Of a stretch of DNA of 64,000 bases, positions 30,918 to 43,419 are shown in pieces. The DNA lies in assembly GCF_030680395.1 (NCBI RefSeq), contig NZ_JAUXVR010000021.1, forward strand, positions 1 to 64,000, in the 5' to 3' direction. The notes beneath the pieces were generated by a model that was not told where the DNA came from, searched no databases, and saw only the letters and a program-made list of their open reading frames with translations. Position 1 is the stretch's first letter. Each line of letters starts with the position of its first letter. The translations under genes were made by a program, and so were the position numbers. Source of the DNA: Methylobacter sp. Its GTDB lineage: Bacteria; Pseudomonadota; Gammaproteobacteria; Methylococcales; Methylomonadaceae.

Positions 30918-31601
30918 ATGACTATTGAAAGTGCATCGAATAAATACAGTAGCTTGACTGTCACGCCCGCAAAAGAGTCGGCGACAGCACCTAAAAAAAC
31001 TTCATTAGGGCAGGATCAGTTTTTAAAGCTAATGACCACGCAGATGACGCACCAAGATCCCACCAAGCCGATGGAAAATGGCGAGTTTCTAACGCAAATA
31101 GCGCAGTTTGGAACCGTATCCGGTATTCAGGATTTGCAAAAATCATTTGGTGACTTTGCCGGTTCAATCAACTCCAGTCAGGCATTGCAGGCAACAAGTT
31201 TAGTGGGGCGATATGTATCTGTACCGGGAACCAAAGGGATGCTGTCAGCTGGGGGCGAGATATCTGGCGATATTAATTTATCTGGAAGTGTTTCCAATAT
31301 TAATGTCAAAGTAATCAATACCACTACAGGTGAAACCATACAAGATGTCGATTTGGGCGCTCATAGCACGGGAAAAGTACCTTTTGTCTGGGAGGGGGTA
31401 AATTCAAATGGCGTCATGGTTAGTCCCGGTGTGTATAAAATTCAGGCAACAGGATACATGGATGGAAAAAATACGGTATTGGAAACAGATATTAAATCGC
31501 GCGTTGACAGTGTCATCATGGGCAATGGCGCTAATAGTTTAAAAGTTAACCTGACCGGTTTGGACAGCGTTAATTTTAATCAGATTAAACAAATTCTTTA
31601 G
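30918..31601 (+). CDS. flgD: Hook-cap scaffolding protein FlgD
   Basis: 227 residues. The N-terminal signature LGQDQFLKLMTTQMTHQDPTKPMENGEFLTQIAQF-type block (residues about 30-62) is unmistakable. The C-terminal half has the FlgD Ig-like and tudor-like strands (PFVWEGVNSNGVMVSPGVYKI). FlgD caps the growing hook and is removed before FlgK is added. It must work with an unusually large hook subunit here. Confidence 0.95.
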   Translation: MTIESASNKYSSLTVTPAKESATAPKKTSLGQDQFLKLMTTQMTHQDPTKPMENGEFLTQIAQFGTVSGIQDLQKSFGDFAGSINSSQALQATSLVGRYVSVPGTKGMLSAGGEISGDINLSGSVSNINVKVINTTTGETIQDVDLGAHSTGKVPFVWEGVNSNGVMVSPGVYKIQATGYMDGKNTVLETDIKSRVDSVIMGNGANSLKVNLTGLDSVNFNQIKQIL

Positions 31602-31616
31602 GATTGGGGGTGTAAC

Positions 31617-34600
31617 ATGGGTTTTGCAACAGCATTAAGTGGATTAAAAGCCGCATCAACAAGTTTACAAGTAACCGGCAATAATATTGCCAATTCCCAA
31701 ACCGTCGGTTTTAAGGAATCACGGGCAGAATTTGCCGACGTGTATGCGTCCAGCCTCGGTGGAGTTAGCAAGATTCAACCAGGTGCCGGAGTGAAAGTCA
31801 CCGAAGTGGCGCAGCAATTTAAGCAGGGCAATATCGAGTCGACCCAAAACAGCCTTGATCTTGCAGTCAGCGGGAATGGTTTTTTTGTATTGGCTGATCA
31901 CGTCAATCTGCCTGATCCTGCTAATCCAAATGCGGCCGTGGATCCTTCGGTACCGAGTGCATATACCCGCAATGGCGCTTTTCAGTTAAATAGCTCAGGG
32001 AATGTGGTTAATGACAAGGGACAGTATTTATTGGCTTTTGCACCAAACGGAACTACTGCAGCGGAGGGCTTTAGTGTCGGCGTTTTTAGGCCGCTCACGA
32101 TTGATACTGCGCAAGGCTTGCCTAACGCCACCGAAAATATCAATATGAAATTGAACATCAACGGAGCTGCCAATCAGCCGTCAACTACGGTGTTTGACCC
32201 TAAAAATCCTTTGTCCTATAACAATACGACATCAATTACGACTTATGATACCCAGGGTAATGCGCATATAGCATCAACCTATTATGTAAAAACGCCGGTA
32301 GCCAATGTATGGGATGCTTATTTATTTCTCGATAATTTTGGCATTACAACAGGTGGGCAGGCTGTGCCGCCGTCAACAGCTCCGACATCAACAGTGTCGG
32401 CAGCGGTTAATCAGCCAGGCACACCTATAAAGATGAGTTTTACCTCGTCAGGATTGGTTTCTGATGTGGGTCCCCGTGCAGCCAATGTTATTTCTGCTGC
32501 AATTCTGTCTGCGGCGAATACAACGGTTACGGGTACCGCTGCTGCGTCTGTTACTGCTGCAGGGTTGCCCGCATTATATGCGGCAGCATCGACACTGCCT
32601 ACGACGGCTGTGGCAGCCGCAGCCGCCGCTGTCACAGCTGTAACGAATATTAACGCCGCATCGACTTCGGCTGCGGCAACGCCTGCTGTATATACTACTG
32701 TTGCAACGGCTGTAACTGATGCAACCGCTACTGCAACCGGTGCAGGAACTGCATCGACTGCCGCTGCGGCGGTGCCTGCCGTATATACTACGGTTGCAAC
32801 GGCTGTGGCTGATGCAGCAACTTCAGTAACAGGTACTGCAGCCACATCAACTGCGGCGACAACGGCGGATGGCTCCGGCGGAATAGTCGCCCTTGATAAT
32901 GCCGCAGTTCTAACTGCTGCCGATGCTGCCGTTCTGACTACCAATGCTTTGGTTACTTCTGCGACTGCTGCTGAGACGGCTGCTACGACCGCCGGTATTG
33001 TTTCTCCCGCTACCCTGACGTTAGCTACGGCCGCTAAAAACGCCGCTAATACCGCAGCTTTATCTGCGCTTCAAGCTCAAACTGATGCGAATACTCTTGA
33101 TAATGGAGGGGTTCCCCTGGCTGCTGGTCCCGCTGCTATTGCTGCCGCCGCTGCCGCAGCTTCCGCTGCCACTGCCGCAGCTGATGCTCTTGCCGCTCAG
33201 ACAGCGGTTGCTGCTTATAATGCTGCCGCCGGCCCCAGTGCAGCTGCAACTGCTATTACCCAGGCAGGAACGGCAGTAACATCGGCCAACACTCTTGTTA
33301 CTTCTGCGACTGCTGCTGCCGCTGCTAATATTACTCCCGCTAACGCAGCACTGGCTGCCGCCGCGCAAACGGCAGCGACTGATGCTGCTACAGCTGCTGC
33401 GGCTTATGCAACATCTGCGGCGCTTGTTGTTGATGCCGCTACTGCGACCACTGCTGCGGCTCTTGCCGTTACTGCGGCCACGAAAGCTACAGCAGCCCAG
33501 ACTGCGGTTAATAGTTATAATGCAGCTGTTGTCGCCGGTGCAGGTCTCGGCGCTGCCGCAACTTCTCTTGCGCTGGCAAATACGGCAGTAGCATCGGCCG
33601 ATGCTCTTGTTGTCTCCGCCACTACTGCGGCCACTACTGCCGCTGCCGGTAATATTGCTCCCGCTGACTTAGCTCTTGCTGTTGCTGCTCAAGCAGCAGC
33701 AACTACCGCGGCTACATCAGCCGCCGCTTATGCAGCCGCGGCTGCGCTTGTTAATGACCCTCTTTCTGCGACCACTGCCGCTAATGCCGCTGCCACTGCG
33801 GCTACTGATGCGGCTGCTGCCAAGGCGGCGGTGGATGCTTATAACACTACTGCAGCAGCTTCCAGCACTACGCAAGGCCCGACTGCAACTGCTCTTGCCA
33901 ATGCCTTGGTAGCATCAGCATCTGCAACTACTTCGGCGGCGGCTGCCGCTGCGATTAATAGTACTCCCTCTGCCGCAGCTTTGGCTGATATAGCTAAAAC
34001 CACTGCCGCTACTGCGGCCGCATCTGCCACTGCTTATGCGGCTTCCGCTGCGCTTGTTGTTGATGCTGCTAGTGCGGCCACTGCGGCGGCTCTTGCCGTT
34101 ACTGCGGCTTCTGATGCTATTCTTGCCCAGACTGCAGCGAGTAATTATAACGCTGCTGTTACCGCAGCCTCTGCCGGCTCTGCGCAAACCACCAAAGTGG
34201 ATTTTGGGTCTATTGATTTAGCGCTTATTAATCCTAATATAAGCGTTTCTCCGATGGCATTCGATGTGGACTTTTTTGGCAGCACCCAGTTTGCTACGCC
34301 CTTTAGTGTTAACGGGCTGGATCAGGATGGTTTACCTGCCGGTAATTTGACCGGCATCGATGTCGATGACACAGGTGTAGTGTTTGCAAGATACAGTAAC
34401 GGCGGTTCCAAGGCTTTAGGGCAGGTGGCATTGGCGCGGTTTCAAAGCAATCAATCTTTGGCTAAATTAGGAGATACCTCTTGGGCGACGACTTCAACTT
34501 CCGGGGCGCCTATCTATGGCGCGGCCGGCGACAATAATTTTGGCGGGATTCAAGCGTCAGCCTTGGAAGGCTCCAATGTGGACTTGTCGGAGCAGTTGGT

Positions 34601-34691
34601 TAAGTTGATTATTGCACAGCAGGCTTATCAGGCTAATTCTCAAACCATTACCACCGAAAAAACCTTGATACAAACTATCCTGAATGCATAG
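31617..34691 (+). CDS. flgE: Flagellar hook protein FlgE with giant Ala/Thr insertion
   Basis: 1024 residues, against about 400-450 in most gammaproteobacteria. The N-terminus MGFATALSGLKAASTSLQVT with NNIANSQTVGFKESRAEFAD, and the C-terminus ASALEGSNVDLSEQLVKLI with AYQANSQTITTEKTLIQT, are normal. Residues about 290-857 (roughly 32490-34190) are an inserted low-complexity domain of mostly Ala, Thr, Ser and Val. It splits the D2-type domain between KMSFTSSGLVSD and TTKVDFGSIDLAL. Its second half repeats a unit of about 100-108 residues starting AQTAVxxYN; three full units and a partial one are visible. The frame stays open throughout, arguing for function. Confidence 0.92.
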   Translation: MGFATALSGLKAASTSLQVTGNNIANSQTVGFKESRAEFADVYASSLGGVSKIQPGAGVKVTEVAQQFKQGNIESTQNSLDLAVSGNGFFVLADHVNLPDPANPNAAVDPSVPSAYTRNGAFQLNSSGNVVNDKGQYLLAFAPNGTTAAEGFSVGVFRPLTIDTAQGLPNATENINMKLNINGAANQPSTTVFDPKNPLSYNNTTSITTYDTQGNAHIASTYYVKTPVANVWDAYLFLDNFGITTGGQAVPPSTAPTSTVSAAVNQPGTPIKMSFTSSGLVSDVGPRAANVISAAILSAANTTVTGTAAASVTAAGLPALYAAASTLPTTAVAAAAAAVTAVTNINAASTSAAATPAVYTTVATAVTDATATATGAGTASTAAAAVPAVYTTVATAVADAATSVTGTAATSTAATTADGSGGIVALDNAAVLTAADAAVLTTNALVTSATAAETAATTAGIVSPATLTLATAAKNAANTAALSALQAQTDANTLDNGGVPLAAGPAAIAAAAAAASAATAAADALAAQTAVAAYNAAAGPSAAATAITQAGTAVTSANTLVTSATAAAAANITPANAALAAAAQTAATDAATAAAAYATSAALVVDAATATTAAALAVTAATKATAAQTAVNSYNAAVVAGAGLGAAATSLALANTAVASADALVVSATTAATTAAAGNIAPADLALAVAAQAAATTAATSAAAYAAAAALVNDPLSATTAANAAATAATDAAAAKAAVDAYNTTAAASSTTQGPTATALANALVASASATTSAAAAAAINSTPSAAALADIAKTTAATAAASATAYAASAALVVDAASAATAAALAVTAASDAILAQTAASNYNAAVTAASAGSAQTTKVDFGSIDLALINPNISVSPMAFDVDFFGSTQFATPFSVNGLDQDGLPAGNLTGIDVDDTGVVFARYSNGGSKALGQVALARFQSNQSLAKLGDTSWATTSTSGAPIYGAAGDNNFGGIQASALEGSNVDLSEQLVKLIIAQQAYQANSQTITTEKTLIQTILNA
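32490..34190 (+). repeat. Coding tandem repeats of the FlgE insertion
   Basis: GCT/GCC/GCA-rich DNA encodes degenerate protein repeats. Two copies of PAVYTTVATAV(T/A)DA lie early on. Then come 100-108-residue units with anchors AQTAVAAYN, AQTAVNSYN, AKAAVDAYN and AQTAASNYN, each with (A)YA.SAALVVDA.(S/T)A.TAA near its end. The repetition is at the protein level with diverged codons, so the duplications are not recent. Long open frames in other registers here are by-products of composition. Confidence 0.8.
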
Positions 34692-34768: not shown

Positions 34769-35512
34769 ATGGACCGTAGTTTATATATTGCAATGAGCGG
34801 CGCCAAACAGTCGTTACTGGCGCAAAATTCAAACGCCAATAATTTGGCGAATGCGCAGACGACCGGTTTCAAATCGGATTTGGAATGGTTTCGCAGCAGA
34901 CCCGTGGAGGGGGCGGGCTATCCTACCCGGGTTTATGCAATGATAGAAAAGCCGGGAACCGATTTTTCTCATGGCCCCATACAAACGACAGGGCGTGATC
35001 TGGATGTGGCCATCAATAACGATGGGCTGATTGCAGTTCAGGGCGACGATGGTAAAGAAGCTTACACTCGAGCAGGCGACCTGCGCCTTTCTCCAGAAGG
35101 TGTATTGAAAACCGGATCGGGTTTGCAAGTATTGGGGCAGGATGGCCCCATCATCATTCCGCCGGCAGAAAAGCTGACCATAGGCAATGACGGTACTATC
35201 AGCATGATTCCGCTGGGTTCCGGCAACGCGACTACCCAGGTAGAGATTGGCCGGATCAAACTGGTTAAACCTGAAATGAAAGATATGGAAAAGCTGGGTG
35301 ACGGCTTGTTGCATCCTAAAAGCGGTGTACCGTTAGCGGCTGATATTACCGTCAGTTTGACCCAGGGCGTTTTGGAAGGCAGTAATGTAAATCCGATTAC
35401 GGCCATGGTAGAAATGATTAATCTGGCGAGAAATTTCGAGCTGCAAACCAAGGTCATGAAGAGTGCGGATGAAAACTCTGCGGCGGGTGCCAAGCTGATG
35501 CAAATGGGATAG
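34769..35512 (+). CDS. flgF: Flagellar proximal rod protein FlgF
   Basis: 247 residues. MDRSLYIAMSGAKQSLLAQN with ANNLANAQTTGFKSDLEWF at the N-terminus and LEGSNVNPITAMVEMINLARNFE at the C-terminus are FlgF hallmarks. The protein has normal length. It is followed by a strong terminator, so the rod operon seems to be split between flgF and flgG. Confidence 0.95.
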   Translation: MDRSLYIAMSGAKQSLLAQNSNANNLANAQTTGFKSDLEWFRSRPVEGAGYPTRVYAMIEKPGTDFSHGPIQTTGRDLDVAINNDGLIAVQGDDGKEAYTRAGDLRLSPEGVLKTGSGLQVLGQDGPIIIPPAEKLTIGNDGTISMIPLGSGNATTQVEIGRIKLVKPEMKDMEKLGDGLLHPKSGVPLAADITVSLTQGVLEGSNVNPITAMVEMINLARNFELQTKVMKSADENSAAGAKLMQMG

Positions 35513-35661: not shown

Positions 35662-36450
35662 ATGACAGAACGCGCATTATGGGTAGCTAAAACCGGTCTG
35701 GATGCCCAACAAACAAGAATGGCGGTTATTTCCAATAACCTGGCGAACGTAAATACGACCGGTTTCAAAAAAGACCGTGCAATGTTTGATGATCTTATGT
35801 ATCAGAATATTCGCCAGGTCGGTGGGCAAACCACGCAAAATACTCAATCTCCAACGGGGACACAGTTGGGAACCGGTGTCAGAACGGTTTCAACCGAAAA
35901 AGTTCATACCCAAGGCAATGTCCAGCAAACAGAAAATGCATTGGATGTGGCAATTAATGGCCGGGGGTTCCTGCAAATTCTCATGCCAAACGGCGATATT
36001 AATTATACCCGTGACGGCTCCTTAAAATTAGACTCAACGGGGCAGTTGGTCACTTCAAACGGATTAACGCTGGATCCTGCGATCACCGTACCTGTCGATG
36101 CGGAAAGTGTCACTATCGGTACCGACGGCACGGTATCCGCTAAGCAACCGGGTGTTGCTGCGCCGACCGTGATAGGGCAAATTCAGACCGCTAATTTTAT
36201 CAATCCTACCGGTTTGGAGGCGGTTGGCGACAATCTCTATCGGGAATCTGCCGCCAGCGGTGCGCCGATAGTGGGTACGCCGGGGCAAGGAGAATATGGA
36301 ACTTTGAATCAGGGGGCATTGGAAACTTCCAATGTCAATGTTGTTGAGGAGCTGGTCAATATGATTGAAACCCAACGGGCTTATGAGATGAACTCCAAGG
36401 CGATTTCAACAGCCGATCAGATGCTGTCCTTTGTGACGCAACAGTTATAA
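35662..36450 (+). CDS. flgG: Flagellar distal rod protein FlgG
   Basis: 262 residues. The distal rod subunit forms the part of the rod inside the P and L rings. ERALWVAKTGLDAQQTRMAV with NNLANVNTTGFKKDRAMFDD, YTRDGSLKLDSTGQLV and LETSNVNVVEELVNMIETQRAYEMNSK are all diagnostic. An ideal ribosome site (AAGGAG) lies 7 bases upstream of the ATG. It is first in the flgGHIJ group. Confidence 0.97.
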   Translation: MTERALWVAKTGLDAQQTRMAVISNNLANVNTTGFKKDRAMFDDLMYQNIRQVGGQTTQNTQSPTGTQLGTGVRTVSTEKVHTQGNVQQTENALDVAINGRGFLQILMPNGDINYTRDGSLKLDSTGQLVTSNGLTLDPAITVPVDAESVTIGTDGTVSAKQPGVAAPTVIGQIQTANFINPTGLEAVGDNLYRESAASGAPIVGTPGQGEYGTLNQGALETSNVNVVEELVNMIETQRAYEMNSKAISTADQMLSFVTQQL

Positions 36451-36465
36451 GTCAGGAGCGATGGC

Positions 36466-37164
36466 ATGATGACTCAAAGATTTGGTTTCAATAATTGCGC
36501 AATGCCCTGCGTTCTTGCAGTCATGCTGTCTCTGTTAGAAGCTTGTACACCGATACCGTCAAAAGATCCCGCATTTGGCCCCGTTGCACCGGCTGACTTA
36601 AGGCCGCCTGTGCAAAACAGCGGGTCAATCTATCAGTCCGGTTACGATATGCGCCTGTTTGAAGACCATACGGCAAAAAGGGTCGGAGATATTCTGACCA
36701 TTACCCTGCTGGAGAGAACCCAGGCGAAAAAGGCTGGCGATCTTAATACCAAGAAAGATACCAGTATGTCGGTTTCGGCACCTACGTTGTTCGGTGTGGC
36801 GGCAGCTACCGTGCTGGGGAAAGATGTGGAAACCGAAATCGCGTCAACAAAAGAATTTACAGGGGAAGGCCAGTCTAATCAGAGCAATAGTTTAAGCGGC
36901 AATATTTCCGTTACGGTTGTTGAACTGTTACCCAATGGCAATTTGAGTGTACGGGGCGAGAAAAGAGTCACCTTAAATCAGGGCGATGAGTTTATCAGGT
37001 TATCGGGCATCGTCAGGCCGGTAGATATAAATTCATCCAATATTATTACCTCGGATAAAGTTGCCGATGTAACCATTATGTATATCGGCGATGGCGCCAT
37101 GGCTGATGCCAGTAAAATGGGCTGGGTGGCAAGATTTATTAATAGCGCATGGTTCCCATTTTAA
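36466..37164 (+). CDS. flgH: Flagellar L-ring lipoprotein FlgH
   Basis: 232 residues. An outer-membrane lipoprotein that forms the L ring. The signal peptide ends in a lipobox ([10 protein letters not shown], Cys about residue 26). Conserved parts follow: [23 protein letters not shown] with [32 protein letters not shown], and [27 protein letters not shown] lies 8 bases before the ATG at 36466. It begins 15 bp after flgG. Confidence 0.95.
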
Positions 37165-37177
37165 AAAGGACATGGAC

Positions 37178-38281
37178 ATGAACATACTACAACAGCGCTT
37201 TATGCTAATTCTCCTACTGGGTAGTGTTTACAGCGGATCGGTTTGTGCTGAACGCATCAAGGATATTGCTTCTATTGAGGGCGTACGCAGCAATCAGCTG
37301 GTAGGCTACGGCTTGGTAGTCGGACTGGATAAATCCGGCGATAAAACAACATTTACCGGACAAAGCTTACGCAGTATGTTGGCTCGTCTTGGGCTGACTT
37401 TACCCCCTGGTGTCGACCCTAAATCAAAGAACATTGCGGCCGTCTCCATTCAGGCTGAGCTGCCGGCATTTGCCAAACCAGGGCAAGCGATTGATGTTAC
37501 CGTTTCTTCTCTTGGCGATGCAAAAAGTTTACGCGGCGGTACGTTGTTAATGAGCCCGTTGAAAGGAGCTGATGGACAAGTCTATGCCATCGCTCAGGGA
37601 AGTTTGGTTGTGAGCGGTCTGAGCGCATCGGGACAGGATGGTTCAAGCGTTACCGTCAATAATCCCAATGTAGGGCGTATTCCCAACGGTGCAACTGTCG
37701 AGCGCACTGTTAACACCTCTTTTGCTGAAGGTGATGCGTTGATTTTTAATCTGCATTCTTCAGATTTTACTACGGCCAATCGCATGGCGGATTCTATTAA
37801 TAAAGTATTGGGTGCTAATACGGCAAAGGCAATCGATGCGACTTCTGTCAGGGTTACGGCACCGGTAGATCCCACTCAAAAAGTGACATTTGCTTCGGTG
37901 GTAGAAAATATGATGGTTGTTCCCGATGATGCGCCGGCGCGTGTCATTGTTAATTCCCGCACCGGAACTGTCGTTATTAACGGTAAGGTCAGGGTGCAAC
38001 CTGCGGCGGTATCTCATGGCAGTTTGACAGTCACTATCAGCGAAGATCCTCAGGTCAGTCAGCCAGACGCATTTTCCAATGGACAAACGGTAGTTACACC
38101 GAAATCCAACCTAAAGGTTGAAGAAGAAAAAAATCACATGTTTGTGTTTAATCCCGGCGTTTCCCTGGATGAAATCGTTCAGGCAGTCAATAACGTAGGC
38201 GCCGCCCCCAGCGATTTGGTGGCTATTCTTGAGGCGCTGAAATCAGCCGGTTCCTTACATGCCGAGTTAATTGTTATCTAA
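37178..38281 (+). CDS. flgI: Flagellar P-ring protein FlgI
   Basis: 367 residues with a Sec signal peptide ([24 protein letters not shown]). The mature protein starts [21 protein letters not shown]. It is periplasmic and forms the P ring in the peptidoglycan with help from Flg[20 protein letters not shown] and the end [22 protein letters not shown] are family marks. The start at 37178 is chosen because AAGGA sits 7 bases before it. The nearer ATG at 37172 is too close, and the longer frame from 37091 overlaps flgH. Confidence 0.95.
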
Positions 38282-39478: not shown

Positions 39479-41320
39479 ATGAGTGGAATATTATCAACGT
39501 CATTGTCAGGACTGATGGCAGCCCAGCGCTCATTGGAAGCTGTGCAACATAATATTTCCAATGTAAATACAGAGGGGTATAGCCGTCAGAGAGTTGAGCA
39601 AAGCTCTAATGCTGCACAATTCACCGGTGATGGATATGTCGGTCAGGGCGTAAACGTCACCAATATCACGCGCAGTTACGACCAGTTTATTAATAAACAA
39701 TTAAGTTCCAGTCTCTCAGCATTCGGAGATGTGGATCGTTACCGCCAGCTTGCTGCAAACGTCGATAATATAATGGCCGATCCTAGTACCGGCATCGCTC
39801 CTGCCATGAAGCGTTTTTTTAATGCCGTGAATGAAGTGGCGGACGACCCTTCATCGATTCCTTCCCGGCAGGTCATGTTGTCTGAGGCGGGAATTTTAAC
39901 GCAAAGCTTCAATACGATGAACGGCAGGTTTGAAAATATACGCGCGCTTAACAACAGCGATATAGGAATAATGGTTGATGATATTAATTCTTTAGCCAAA
40001 TCAATAGCCGATCTTAATGTACAAATTCTGGCAGACTTAGGTAAAACACAAGGCATGAGACAGCCTAATGACTTGCTGGATAAGCAGGATGTTTTGTTGT
40101 CAAGGTTATCCGAGATAGTCAACGTTTCTGTAGTCAAACAGAGAGACGGTATGTCCAGTGTTTTTATCGGTAATGGACAGGCGCTGGTTCTTAATGGTGG
40201 AGTGGCGACATTTACCACTATTCAGTCTAAATTCGATCCGGGTCGGCTGGAAATCGGGATTAAGACAGCTAATGGCATCATGGAGATGACCGGCCAAATC
40301 AGTGGCGGTTCGTTGGGGGGGGCATTAAGATTTCGGGATGAAGTGCTGGATCAGGCACAACAACAACTGGGTCTGGTTGCCGCCGGTTTGACAATGGAGC
40401 TTAACGGGCTTCACAAGAAAGGTTTTGACTTGAACGGCACGGCAGGAACGGCATTATTTAACTTTTCAGGCAGTGAAGTTCCTGTTGTTCAAAGTCCGTT
40501 TAATAGCGGCAACGCGGTTATTACCGCTAATTTTCAGGATGTAAATGTCAATCCATCGGCAGCCGGAAGTCTGGATTTTAGTGATTTTAACTTGAAGTAT
40601 GTTAATGCCGGCGGCGGAGTTGATTACACCCTGACCAGAATACGGGATAACCAGGTCATTAATCTTACGTCCACCAATGTGGGAGGGATTGCTACCTTAT
40701 CGTTTGCAGCTACTCAACCCGCAAGCACCACCATAACCACTTTGCCGGGCATTAATATAACAGTTGATTTGAGTGGAGGAAAAACCATATCTGCCGGGGA
40801 TGAAGCTTTAATCAGGCCGACTTATAGCGCCGCTCAGAAAATTCGGGTCAATATTGACGATCCGAGAAAAATCGCGGCAGCGACCAATATAGAAATCGAC
40901 CTCGTGACCAAATTGCCTGTACCAAAACGTGATGCGTTAAATAATCCGGTTGTAGATGTATTGGGTAATCCCGTTTATGTCACCATTAACGGGCCGATGG
41001 CCGGCGATAATCGAAATGCATTACAACTGGCAGATGTTGAGAATAAATTGGGTATGATAGGAGGGACCGCCTCATTTGGCGATGCTTATGGACAAATTGT
41101 TTCCGGCGTTGGAACTTTGACGCGAGCAGCAGAATTTGGTTCTTCTGCACAAAGAGCGTTATTAAATCAGGCAAAGGAATCCAGGGAGAGCTTGGCAGGT
41201 GTGAATTTGGACGAAGAGGCCGCTAACTTAATAAGGTTTCAGCAAGCTTATCAGGCATCCGCACAATCAATTGCGATAGCCAAGTCCTTGTTTGATATGT
41301 TGATAGGCGCAGTTAGGTAG
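39479..41320 (+). CDS. flgK: Hook-filament junction protein FlgK (HAP1)
   Basis: 613 residues, slightly longer than the enteric 547. N-terminus: ILSTSLSGLMAAQRSLEAVQHNISNVNTEGYSRQRVE. C-terminus: GVNLDEEAANLIRFQQAYQASAQSIAIAKSLFDML. Both match the D0/D1 ends of FlgK. It joins the hook to the filament. FlgN would be its chaperone. It lies 43 bp after flgJ. A sigma-28-like site was looked for here, and none good enough was found. Confidence 0.96.
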   Translation: MSGILSTSLSGLMAAQRSLEAVQHNISNVNTEGYSRQRVEQSSNAAQFTGDGYVGQGVNVTNITRSYDQFINKQLSSSLSAFGDVDRYRQLAANVDNIMADPSTGIAPAMKRFFNAVNEVADDPSSIPSRQVMLSEAGILTQSFNTMNGRFENIRALNNSDIGIMVDDINSLAKSIADLNVQILADLGKTQGMRQPNDLLDKQDVLLSRLSEIVNVSVVKQRDGMSSVFIGNGQALVLNGGVATFTTIQSKFDPGRLEIGIKTANGIMEMTGQISGGSLGGALRFRDEVLDQAQQQLGLVAAGLTMELNGLHKKGFDLNGTAGTALFNFSGSEVPVVQSPFNSGNAVITANFQDVNVNPSAAGSLDFSDFNLKYVNAGGGVDYTLTRIRDNQVINLTSTNVGGIATLSFAATQPASTTITTLPGINITVDLSGGKTISAGDEALIRPTYSAAQKIRVNIDDPRKIAAATNIEIDLVTKLPVPKRDALNNPVVDVLGNPVYVTINGPMAGDNRNALQLADVENKLGMIGGTASFGDAYGQIVSGVGTLTRAAEFGSSAQRALLNQAKESRESLAGVNLDEEAANLIRFQQAYQASAQSIAIAKSLFDMLIGAVR

Positions 41321-41331
41321 GAGTAATAGTA

Positions 41332-43419
41332 ATGAGAATTTCAACAGCTTGGGCACAACAGCTTAGTGTCGATGCAATGGCAGGTCAGCAAACCAAATTG
41401 GCTAAGGTGCAGCAGCAATTAAGCTCTGGACTTAAAGTGTCAACACCTGCTGAAGACCCTGCAGCGGCAGTAAGGATATTGGATTTAGACAGAACGATTG
41501 CAAAAACAAATCAGTATCAAAATAATATTGCTACTACTCGCGGCCGGTTGAATATTGAGGAATCCGCTTTGGGAACTTCAGTCAACATATTAGGTCGCGC
41601 TAAAGAGCTGGCTATTCAAGCGATGACTCCCGCTTTAAGCAGTAGTGACAGGTTAACGATCAAGACTGAAGTGGATCAGATGATTCTAGGATTGGCTGAC
41701 GTGGCAAATACCAAAAACGCCAATGGTGAATTTATTTTTTCTGGCTATCTTTCGACGGTGCCCGCTTTTGCGATACATCCCACAACCGGAGAATATGTTT
41801 ATCAAGGCGGTACGCAGCAGCGGGCTTTGCAAATTAGTCCGACAAGGCAGGTGGCTGATGGCGACTTGGGATTTAATGTGTTCGAAAACATTAGCTCAAG
41901 CAGTCCTGCTGCTGATGAGAATGGCAAGCGTAGTATTTTCAATACCTTAAAGGCGTTGTCTGAGGGATTGAGCGCTACTTTTAACGCCAGCCCCGCCGAA
42001 ATTACCGGTGACAGGTTTTTGCGGTACGGGCTGGATTATACGGCTCCTCTTTCTACAATTACTGCGCCAGGTCAATCGGATCCAAAGACCGTTACCAGCT
42101 TTAACTTTAATACCACTGTTGCGCCGCAGGTTGATGGAACGAATACAAGTGCCTTTTTAGGTGTGGGTGGTGGTGGGCAGGCTGCACTTAATTTTTCCGG
42201 TGTTTCGAATTTGGCTCAATTCAACGTCAATGGTGCGTCGGTTACCCTGACTCAGGCCTATGCCACCAAGGATGCTCTTGCCTTGGATATTCAAAACCAG
42301 CTTCAGGCTAATGCCGGTATGAATGGTTACACCGCTGTATTTGCCGGCAACGACCTTGTCATCACCAATACGGGCTCCACTGCAGCCGTTGAGGTTACCT
42401 TTGCGGATACTAATGCGATTGCGGCTGGTTTTGTTAATTCGGCAGGTGCCATAGGTGCTGCGGCAGTTCCCACCACTAATGCGACCTTCTCAGTGGATGG
42501 TACGTCCATCACTCTTGATGGTGCGGACACCAACATTACAGGTGTGGTCGCGGAAATAAATACCAAAATCCAGGCATCCACTCTTGCGGATAAAGCCAAT
42601 TACCTGGCGACACTCGACGGTTCCGGTAAGCTTGTGATCACTCATTGGGGTTCCACCACTCCCGTTTCTATCACGGTTCCTGCCGGACAGGCCGGGACTA
42701 ACGCCACGAACGCAGGTATTACCGGATCTACTGGTATTGTCGGGACGGTAGCGGAAGGAACCGCCTTTGATTTGGTTGCCAATGTGGAGATGCTTCCTGC
42801 TACTGTACCGGCAACACTAGCCGCTATTACAGCCCCTATAAATCTGACTGGAAAAAAGTTTACCGGTGTGGACGGTATGGTTTCCGAGATTAATGCGCAA
42901 CTTGCAGCAACCCCCGGCGGTTTGCTGTCTGCCGCCTTTATTACGCCAAACACCAATTTTGCTGCAGGTTCCCATTTTAGCGATGTCATTCAAGTGCGGA
43001 GCAATGGTAATAGAATCGAGTTTTTCTCAGTAGTCAAAGGGGATACCTCCAGCATAACAATTAATAATACTTCAGGAACATTTTTAACGGATGCCGGTTT
43101 TATTGATGGTCAGAGCAAGACAGGAGCCGGCGCACAGACATTTCAAAGTCAGTTTGATGATGTATTAAAAGATCTCGATGCTGCCCAGGATAGTTTTTTG
43201 CAGGCAAGAACCAGTGTTGGGGTGCGTATGAATGCTCTGGATGATCAAGAATCCCAAAATGAGAAATTTGTATTGGACACCAAGATAACACTTTCCGAAA
43301 CGCAAGATCTGGATTACGCAGAGGCAATCAGTCGGTTCCAATTGCAAACCGCTGCTTTGCAGGCCGCGCAACAGACTTTTTCCAAGGTGAAAGAATTATC
43401 GTTGTTTAATTATCTCTAA
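41332..43419 (+). CDS. flgL: Enlarged hook-filament junction protein FlgL (HAP3)
   Basis: 695 residues, against 317 in enterics. The ends are flagellin-like D0/D1 helices: MRISTAWAQQLSVDAMAGQQ with LAKVQQQLSSGLKVSTPAEDP, and QDLDYAEAISRFQLQTAALQAAQQTFSKV. Residues about 255-570 are extra beta modules of the type (FN/FS)V(N/D)G.S(V/I)TL. They align in order with the flagellin variable region of this window, for example FNFNTTVAPQVDG with flagellin [13 protein letters not shown]. It lies 11 bp after flgK and closes the operon. Confidence 0.93.
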   Translation: MRISTAWAQQLSVDAMAGQQTKLAKVQQQLSSGLKVSTPAEDPAAAVRILDLDRTIAKTNQYQNNIATTRGRLNIEESALGTSVNILGRAKELAIQAMTPALSSSDRLTIKTEVDQMILGLADVANTKNANGEFIFSGYLSTVPAFAIHPTTGEYVYQGGTQQRALQISPTRQVADGDLGFNVFENISSSSPAADENGKRSIFNTLKALSEGLSATFNASPAEITGDRFLRYGLDYTAPLSTITAPGQSDPKTVTSFNFNTTVAPQVDGTNTSAFLGVGGGGQAALNFSGVSNLAQFNVNGASVTLTQAYATKDALALDIQNQLQANAGMNGYTAVFAGNDLVITNTGSTAAVEVTFADTNAIAAGFVNSAGAIGAAAVPTTNATFSVDGTSITLDGADTNITGVVAEINTKIQASTLADKANYLATLDGSGKLVITHWGSTTPVSITVPAGQAGTNATNAGITGSTGIVGTVAEGTAFDLVANVEMLPATVPATLAAITAPINLTGKKFTGVDGMVSEINAQLAATPGGLLSAAFITPNTNFAAGSHFSDVIQVRSNGNRIEFFSVVKGDTSSITINNTSGTFLTDAGFIDGQSKTGAGAQTFQSQFDDVLKDLDAAQDSFLQARTSVGVRMNALDDQESQNEKFVLDTKITLSETQDLDYAEAISRFQLQTAALQAAQQTFSKVKELSLFNYL

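Follow-up and report, generated by a model that had tools for sequence, protein, structure and literature searches.

A four-copy alanine-rich insert of predicted helical fold in the D2 domain of a Methylobacter hook protein

The flagellar hook protein FlgE of a Methylobacter sp. carries a long alanine-rich insert within its D2 domain. The gene lies in a window of 64,000 nucleotides (the whole stretch of DNA that was analysed, positions 1 to 64,000 of contig NZ_JAUXVR010000021.1, assembly GCF_030680395.1), where it is placed between flgD and flgF within a flgB-L run (Table 1). It starts with ATG and forms a single open frame with no internal stops, and the only full-length match to its product in its own genome is this gene. 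Pfam domains covering the C-terminal, D1 and D2 regions were all found above the curated cut-offs (PF06429, 7.4e-14; PF07559, 1.3e-10; PF22692, 2.5e-06), and TIGR03506 scored 261.9 bits against a cut-off of 70.25. The FlgE equivalog cut-off was missed, with 384 bits against 400 for the best model, NF004238, and with the remaining FlgE equivalog models also under theirs; the equivalog match is broken in two by the insert. Despite this score, the protein is still identified as FlgE by its position and its homologues. Its residues 1-261 share 88-94% identity with the seven best-scoring congeners. A preliminary description had reported a FlgE whose D2 domain is interrupted by an Ala/Thr-rich insertion that keeps the frame, and the single frame and the Pfam FlgE domains confirm it.

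The insert comprises 574 amino acids (aa), at residues 285-858, close to the bounds of 290-857 first given. It accounts for 51.2 of the 97.7 kDa of FlgE and has a calculated isoelectric point of 4.05. Its composition is dominated by Ala (43.6%), Thr (16.9%), Val (7.0%) and Ser (6.6%); charged residues number 24, of which 18 are Asp, and Cys, Met, Phe, Trp and His are all absent. A lead-in of 140 residues is followed by four units of 98-118 aa. The first estimate of three to four units of 100-108 residues came near to this, unit 1 being longer. The E-values of the units in Table 1 are not independent, since the unit profile includes all four window copies as rows. Compared with codon-shuffled controls (n = 200), the DNA identities of units 2 and 4 (75%) and of units 2 and 3 (74%) were above every control (maximum 73% each). 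Those of units 3 and 4 (70%) and of the three pairs with unit 1 (64-69%) were not above their controls, and unit 1 is therefore counted as a unit by profile and length rather than by pairwise DNA identity. At the protein level, the window units are 50-64% identical among themselves. Unit 4 shares 77% identity with the unit of the congener G004 and is, by tree path, nearest to those of G005 and G004. The lead-in also contains a tandem repeat of 93 base pairs (bp) that was absent from the preliminary description. An origin in some other surface protein was considered for the unit and rejected, as the unit profile, searched against the window genome (E up to 0.01), matched only the four flgE copies.

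Table 1. Coordinates of flgE, the parts of its insert and adjoining genes in the window
Feature	Position	Strand	Evidence and remarks
flgD, hook cap	30918..31601	+	Pfam FlgD N-terminal, tudor and Ig domains; adjoins flgE upstream
flgE, hook protein	31617..34691	+	open frame; Pfam Flg_bbr_C, FlgE_D2, LlgE_F_G_D1; 1024 aa
Conserved FlgE N-terminal part, residues 1-284	31617..32468	+	D0/D1 and first part of D2
Insert lead-in, residues 285-424	32469..32888	+	unit 1 begins at insert residue 141
93-bp (31-aa) tandem repeat inside lead-in	32655..32854	+	2.2 copies; Tandem Repeats Finder score 239, 76% matches
Unit 1	32889..33242	+	118 aa, most divergent; unit profile E 8.8e-13, 49.5 bits
Unit 2	33234..33542	+	103 aa; unit profile E 1.5e-23
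Unit 3	33555..33866	+	104 aa; unit profile E 2.3e-18
Unit 4	33882..34175	+	98 aa, copy closest to relatives' single unit; unit profile E 5.3e-26
Conserved FlgE C-terminal part, residues 859-1024	34191..34688	+	rest of D2, D1, D0; Flg_bbr_C at 980-1023
flgF	34769..35512	+	NCBIfam flgF above cut-off; adjoins flgE downstream
flgG	35662..36450		family profiles

The length of FlgE among relatives, proposed from the start as a check, was compared across the 23 genomes of the genus, of which 21 including the window have a FlgE that could be read (G018 yielded weak matches only and G009 none). Measured between the same D2 landmarks, the insert falls into size classes of 5-9 aa in 6 of the 21 proteins, 145-165 aa in 12, 295-296 aa in two and 574 aa in the window, and the inserts of the congeners sit at the same D2 site as that of the window. 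Close relatives lacking a frame-preserving insertion had been named in advance as an argument against a genuine feature. Six congeners are of this kind; the 14 others have a shorter insert at the same place, also kept in frame, which makes the insert a variable trait in the genus rather than an error. The lead-in varies as well: it has 39-47 residues in those 10 of the 12 one-unit-sized proteins in which a unit was detected, 86 and 84 in the two-unit proteins, and 140 in the window. A family search (E up to 1e-30) gave a FlgE match in 125 of 237 genomes, where the longest open frame is that of the window (1029), followed by 833, 766, 750 and 731. A FlgE match was found in 189 of 369 genomes of a class sample, the next longest among the matches listed being 865, which on inspection read as a 422-aa FlgE. 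A phylum sample gave a D2 match in 297 of 398 genomes, and the longest among the matches listed was 667. The window FlgE is the longest FlgE frame among the matches listed for these three samples. A different route to a larger hook protein was noticed in L081 (G132), L086 (G352) and L089 (G565), whose FlgE of 624-755 aa apparently contain two or three copies of a D2-like segment, with repeated 'SYN..TS.T.YDS.G' motifs recognized by eye.

The unit also occurs in another genus. The unit profile (E up to 1e-6) matched 12 of the 237 family genomes, 11 of this genus including the window and one, G059, of another genus. Each match falls in an open frame as long as the FlgE of that genome, so the unit was seen in flgE frames only. 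The insert-bearing congeners G002, G007, G013 and G015 miss this threshold, and in the class sample none of 368 genomes other than the window was matched at E up to 1e-5. Since G059 sat in the original unit profile, its family match is circular, and independent tests used profiles rebuilt without it. With these, the G059 insert scored 32.4 bits, where the highest of 100 shuffles reached -9.6, and a second profile gave it 35.2 bits, where the highest of 200 shuffles reached -6.9. G077, from the same genus as G059, has two weaker unit copies (10.8 and 14.7 bits); its whole insert scored 7.9, the four of 500 shuffles that were printed lying between -57 and -60. As read by eye from the sequences, the inserts of G059 and G077 lie in the D2 loop before the strand matching 'F..SGxL', and the Methylobacter insert lies after that strand.

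Ala-rich inserts also occur at the Methylobacter D2 site in a related lineage, g26, in which 14 genomes have a FlgE match. Eight of these inserts were measured, five of 134-138 aa and three of 252-276 aa; the FlgE of G205, G210, G213 and G219 have 492-499 aa and no Ala-rich stretch, and G211 and G214 were left out of the measurement. A common origin of the g26 and Methylobacter inserts found little support in profile-against-shuffle tests. With the unit profile, four of five g26 inserts failed to reach the best score of their 100 shuffles, which L049 narrowly passed (-16.1 against -18.6); with a one-unit profile, all eight scored below the best of 200 shuffles. In the reverse test with 15 genus inserts, 13 stayed below the shuffled maximum, with the window (-99.6 against -103.7) and G004 (-13.6 against -14.4) just above it. 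The G015 insert stayed under the shuffled maximum in three tests; G196 did so in two and narrowly exceeded it in another (-14.5 against -16.6).

Structure prediction was most informative for a one-unit relative, L037 (same contig as G004). AlphaFold2 with 30 aligned sequences gave a mean predicted local distance difference test score (pLDDT) of 75.7, with helices at 286-321, 333-358, 364-392 and 397-432 directly between the D2 strands 280-284 and 440-446. Ten-residue block means were 75-97 across 281-440, except 54 at 321-330, and the D0 ends were below 50. The one-unit insert is thus modelled confidently as a four-helix bundle rising from the D2 hairpin, a layout in which the lead-in contributes one helix and the unit three. 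The initial proposal of a helical or fibre-like decoration agrees with this model in its helical part, as it does with heptad-like conservation in two of the three unit helices; the fibre-like part finds no support, as both ends of the bundle lead back into a single D2 hairpin. The window protein gave a model too poor for a fold search, and none was based on it. At low confidence this model shows four helices in the lead-in, which may consist of one helix matching the first bundle helix of the one-unit relatives and then extra, weakly predicted helices. Foldseek with the L037 model retrieved hook proteins as best matches (E 7.9e-25 downward), and the best non-flagellar matches shown were not significant.

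Across 18 units, conservation recurs every 3.55 residues in helix C and every 3.50 in helix D, a signal matched in strength by 1 and 0 of 2000 shuffles, respectively. The most conserved unit positions are mainly Ala, plus two Tyr, and resemble a small-residue helix core. With about 37 residues per helix across whole inserts, the three insert-bearing size classes would correspond to about 4, 8 and 16 helices. An even-number rule may tentatively be drawn from the lengths together with two models, one good and one poor. As the chain must return to the same D2 hairpin, antiparallel helices would be needed in even number, and this would explain why the lead-in doubles alongside the unit.

In the FlgE core tree, the window is nearest to G022, G004, G005 and G006, all with one-unit-sized inserts, in a poorly resolved neighbourhood. 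On the best core tree the 'no insert' state requires at least four changes, two of them forced by well-supported branches, and a count as low as this arose in 35 of 500 label shuffles. The unit tree has no well-supported branches, and the order of duplication was not resolved by it. The ratio of non-synonymous to synonymous substitution rates (dN/dS) of the insert or the terminal unit was 0.14-0.56 in 11 pairwise comparisons, all below 1, and in 11 of 11 it was above that of both core parts (0.02-0.24); these values are rough, dS being frequently near or above 1. Judged from these ratios, the insert domain is constrained, though less than the core.

The flagellar genes of the window are ordered flgB, flgC, flgD, flgE, flgF, flgG, flgH, flgI, flgJ, flgK and flgL. 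Family profiles confirm only flgD, flgE, flgF, flgG and flgL of this run; the remaining six are presumed identifications, named from their translations. The flgI frame as listed (37091-38281, +) begins within flgH, and its true start is probably a later ATG (MNILQQRF...). The hook-filament junction protein FlgL (41332-43419, +) has 695 aa, compared with 287-524 positions in the five best NCBIfam FlgL models, and the best model stretch spans only about residues 1-199, which indicates a large variable region there too. Among the other junction proteins, FlgK-like frames of 714-837 residues occur in about seven insert-bearing congeners (e.g., G016, G019, G006 and G008); those of all six congeners without a FlgE insert have 573-623 residues and that of the window (39479-41320) has 620. 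The co-occurrence of a long FlgK with a FlgE insert is perhaps a partial link between hook and junction outer domains. The Flg_hook (FliK C-terminal) domain has exactly two matches in 20 of the 23 genus genomes, usually one strong and one weaker (G000:C23 and G000:C41).

Taken together, the insert is probably a folded, lineage-specific outer hook domain that has been amplified in this genome, and its likeliest effect is mechanical, a thicker or stiffer hook. It would be built of antiparallel Ala-core alpha-helical bundles set into the D2 hairpin. In the basic Methylobacter form, a lead helix and a three-helix unit would make up one four-helix bundle; in the window form, the fourfold unit and the longer lead-in would add up to about 16 helices. 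FlgE would be exported in an unfolded state, and its subunits would polymerise via the normal D0-D1-D2 core, the bundles then coating the hook exterior. In the Salmonella hook the outermost layer is formed by D2, and from the position of this domain in solved hooks the bundles would be displayed on the hook surface. There, they would likely widen the hook and provide added side-to-side contacts, making it stiffer against bending and shear, as reported for the Campylobacter extra domains. Because the Campylobacter jejuni site lies about 90 residues earlier, the contact geometry may differ here.

This mechanical role is put ahead of surface variation and of tolerated drift, and several observations weigh against it. 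The window FlgE model is poor (mean pLDDT 45.5 with 16 aligned sequences; 16 helices within 286-856), so that the 16-helix count and the even-number rule are weak, and the helix counts for the 295-aa forms come from length. Helix B lacks a significant periodicity of 3.5 residues (580 of 2000 shuffles gave as strong a signal), the one-unit-sized inserts of G002 and G015 have no detected unit, six congeners are without an insert, and no pattern was seen that links FliK length to the length of the insert. A Salmonella chimera carrying the C. jejuni domains swam more slowly, at about two thirds of wild-type speed, as reported in PMC5069557.

Some of these observations would suit a near-neutral expansion, in which recombination would lengthen and shorten a low-complexity Ala-rich stretch within a permissive D2 loop, with few consequences for function. 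The six congeners with just 5-9 residues at the site, the simple composition, the 93-bp tandem repeat and the lack of periodicity in helix B all fit such drift. However, heptad-like conservation in helices C and D, the dN/dS of 0.14-0.56, the separate size classes and the compact fold modelled with confidence speak for constraint, and units that are 50-64% identical as proteins are not the product of fresh slippage; this account is considered improbable. Little better placed, and still unlikely, is a fast-changing surface module under selection by phages that bind the flagellum or by grazers. Through its presence or absence, its copy number and its sequence, the hook coat would then alter the exposed surface of a structure that is conserved in other respects. 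It would account for the higher dN/dS of the insert than of both core parts in every comparison, for the patchy presence implied by the 'no insert' changes on the core tree, for the sharing of the unit between Methylobacter and another genus, and for the occurrence in the family of two D2 sites and of three or more insert types without a clear relationship. Yet at this level the ratios, below 1 throughout, do not point to positive selection, and weak constraint on an outer domain predicts the same pattern. By far the least probable is an assembly artefact or a wrongly expanded repeat, although the draft genome is in 49 contigs and a second strain with a 1024-aa FlgE was not found. The copies are only 64-75% identical in DNA (25-36% divergent) and the longest exact repeat within the insert is 23 bp, which makes assembly collapse or false expansion unlikely; moreover, the frame is intact over 1.7 kb and two units are present in two congeners.

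Beyond the outer-domain reading itself, a more speculative extension, for now rather doubtful, is that of an exchangeable hook coat. Helix bundles would be added in even numbers (4, 8, 16) on one D2 hairpin, the module would move between genera and D2 loops, and hook diameter and stiffness would be tunable stepwise by duplication. The seemingly unrelated modules of g26 have like size steps (134-138 and 252-276 aa), and like steps reached by unrelated sequences would point to a structural rule, the independent cases being few. The hook is a conserved universal joint, and the extra outer domains described for it so far are few. Within a single genus there are now naturally occurring hooks that combine a nearly constant core with zero, one, two or four copies of one kind of outer module, and the relation of outer-domain mass to hook diameter and bending stiffness is thus directly testable. 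The comparison also suggests that D2 can accept helical domains in addition to beta domains, and can do so at more than one loop.

FlgE length is reported to vary through domains inserted in D2 (PMC5069557). In the C. jejuni hook, D2, D3 and D4 are described as successive rings of increasing radius, and the D2-inserted domains as adding robustness (PMC5097172). Salmonella FlgE carrying the C. jejuni domains formed functional and wider hooks, and with D3 alone no flagella were reported (PMC5069557). The Methylobacter protein resembles the C. jejuni one with its D3/D4 (PDB 5jxl, 5az4) in its large D2 insertion, its conserved D0-D1-D2 core and its long subunit (the 5jxl chain has 851 residues). 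They differ in the site of insertion: the C. jejuni domains (about 386 aa) were put between Thr167 and Pro168 of Salmonella FlgE (PMC5069557), and the Methylobacter site, mapped by eye, falls about 90 residues past this point, in a later hairpin of D2 that follows the 'FTxSGLLxxV' strand. The window FlgE has no insertion at the D2 loop equivalent to Thr167/Pro168. They also differ in that the Methylobacter domain is predicted to be all-helical, and is Ala-rich, repeated and variable in copy number within the genus. A search of the unit profile A2 against PDB (E up to 1) matched no chain of a collection that includes 5jxl and 5az4, and no relationship to C. jejuni D3/D4 was detected at the sequence level. 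Caulobacter crescentus FlgE (PDB 5ay6) offers a further parallel, with the single extra domain D3 inserted in D2.

The four-helix bundle of the talin rod (VBS3, PDB 2b0h) was a weak Foldseek match of the L037 model (rank 49, E 0.32, probability 0.87); the protein is eukaryotic, the match is not significant and the analogy is one of shape only. In the giant flagellins of Bermanella and Oleibacter, the outer region of a flagellar axial protein is likewise enlarged by internal duplication; these are filament rather than hook proteins and no relationship is claimed. Their repeated DE regions are reported to go with considerably thicker filaments (PMC6248924). A literature search found no report of this Methylobacter FlgE insert. 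The lengthening of FlgE by domains inserted in D2 was already known, and the four copies described here stand as an unusual extreme and a new variant of it.
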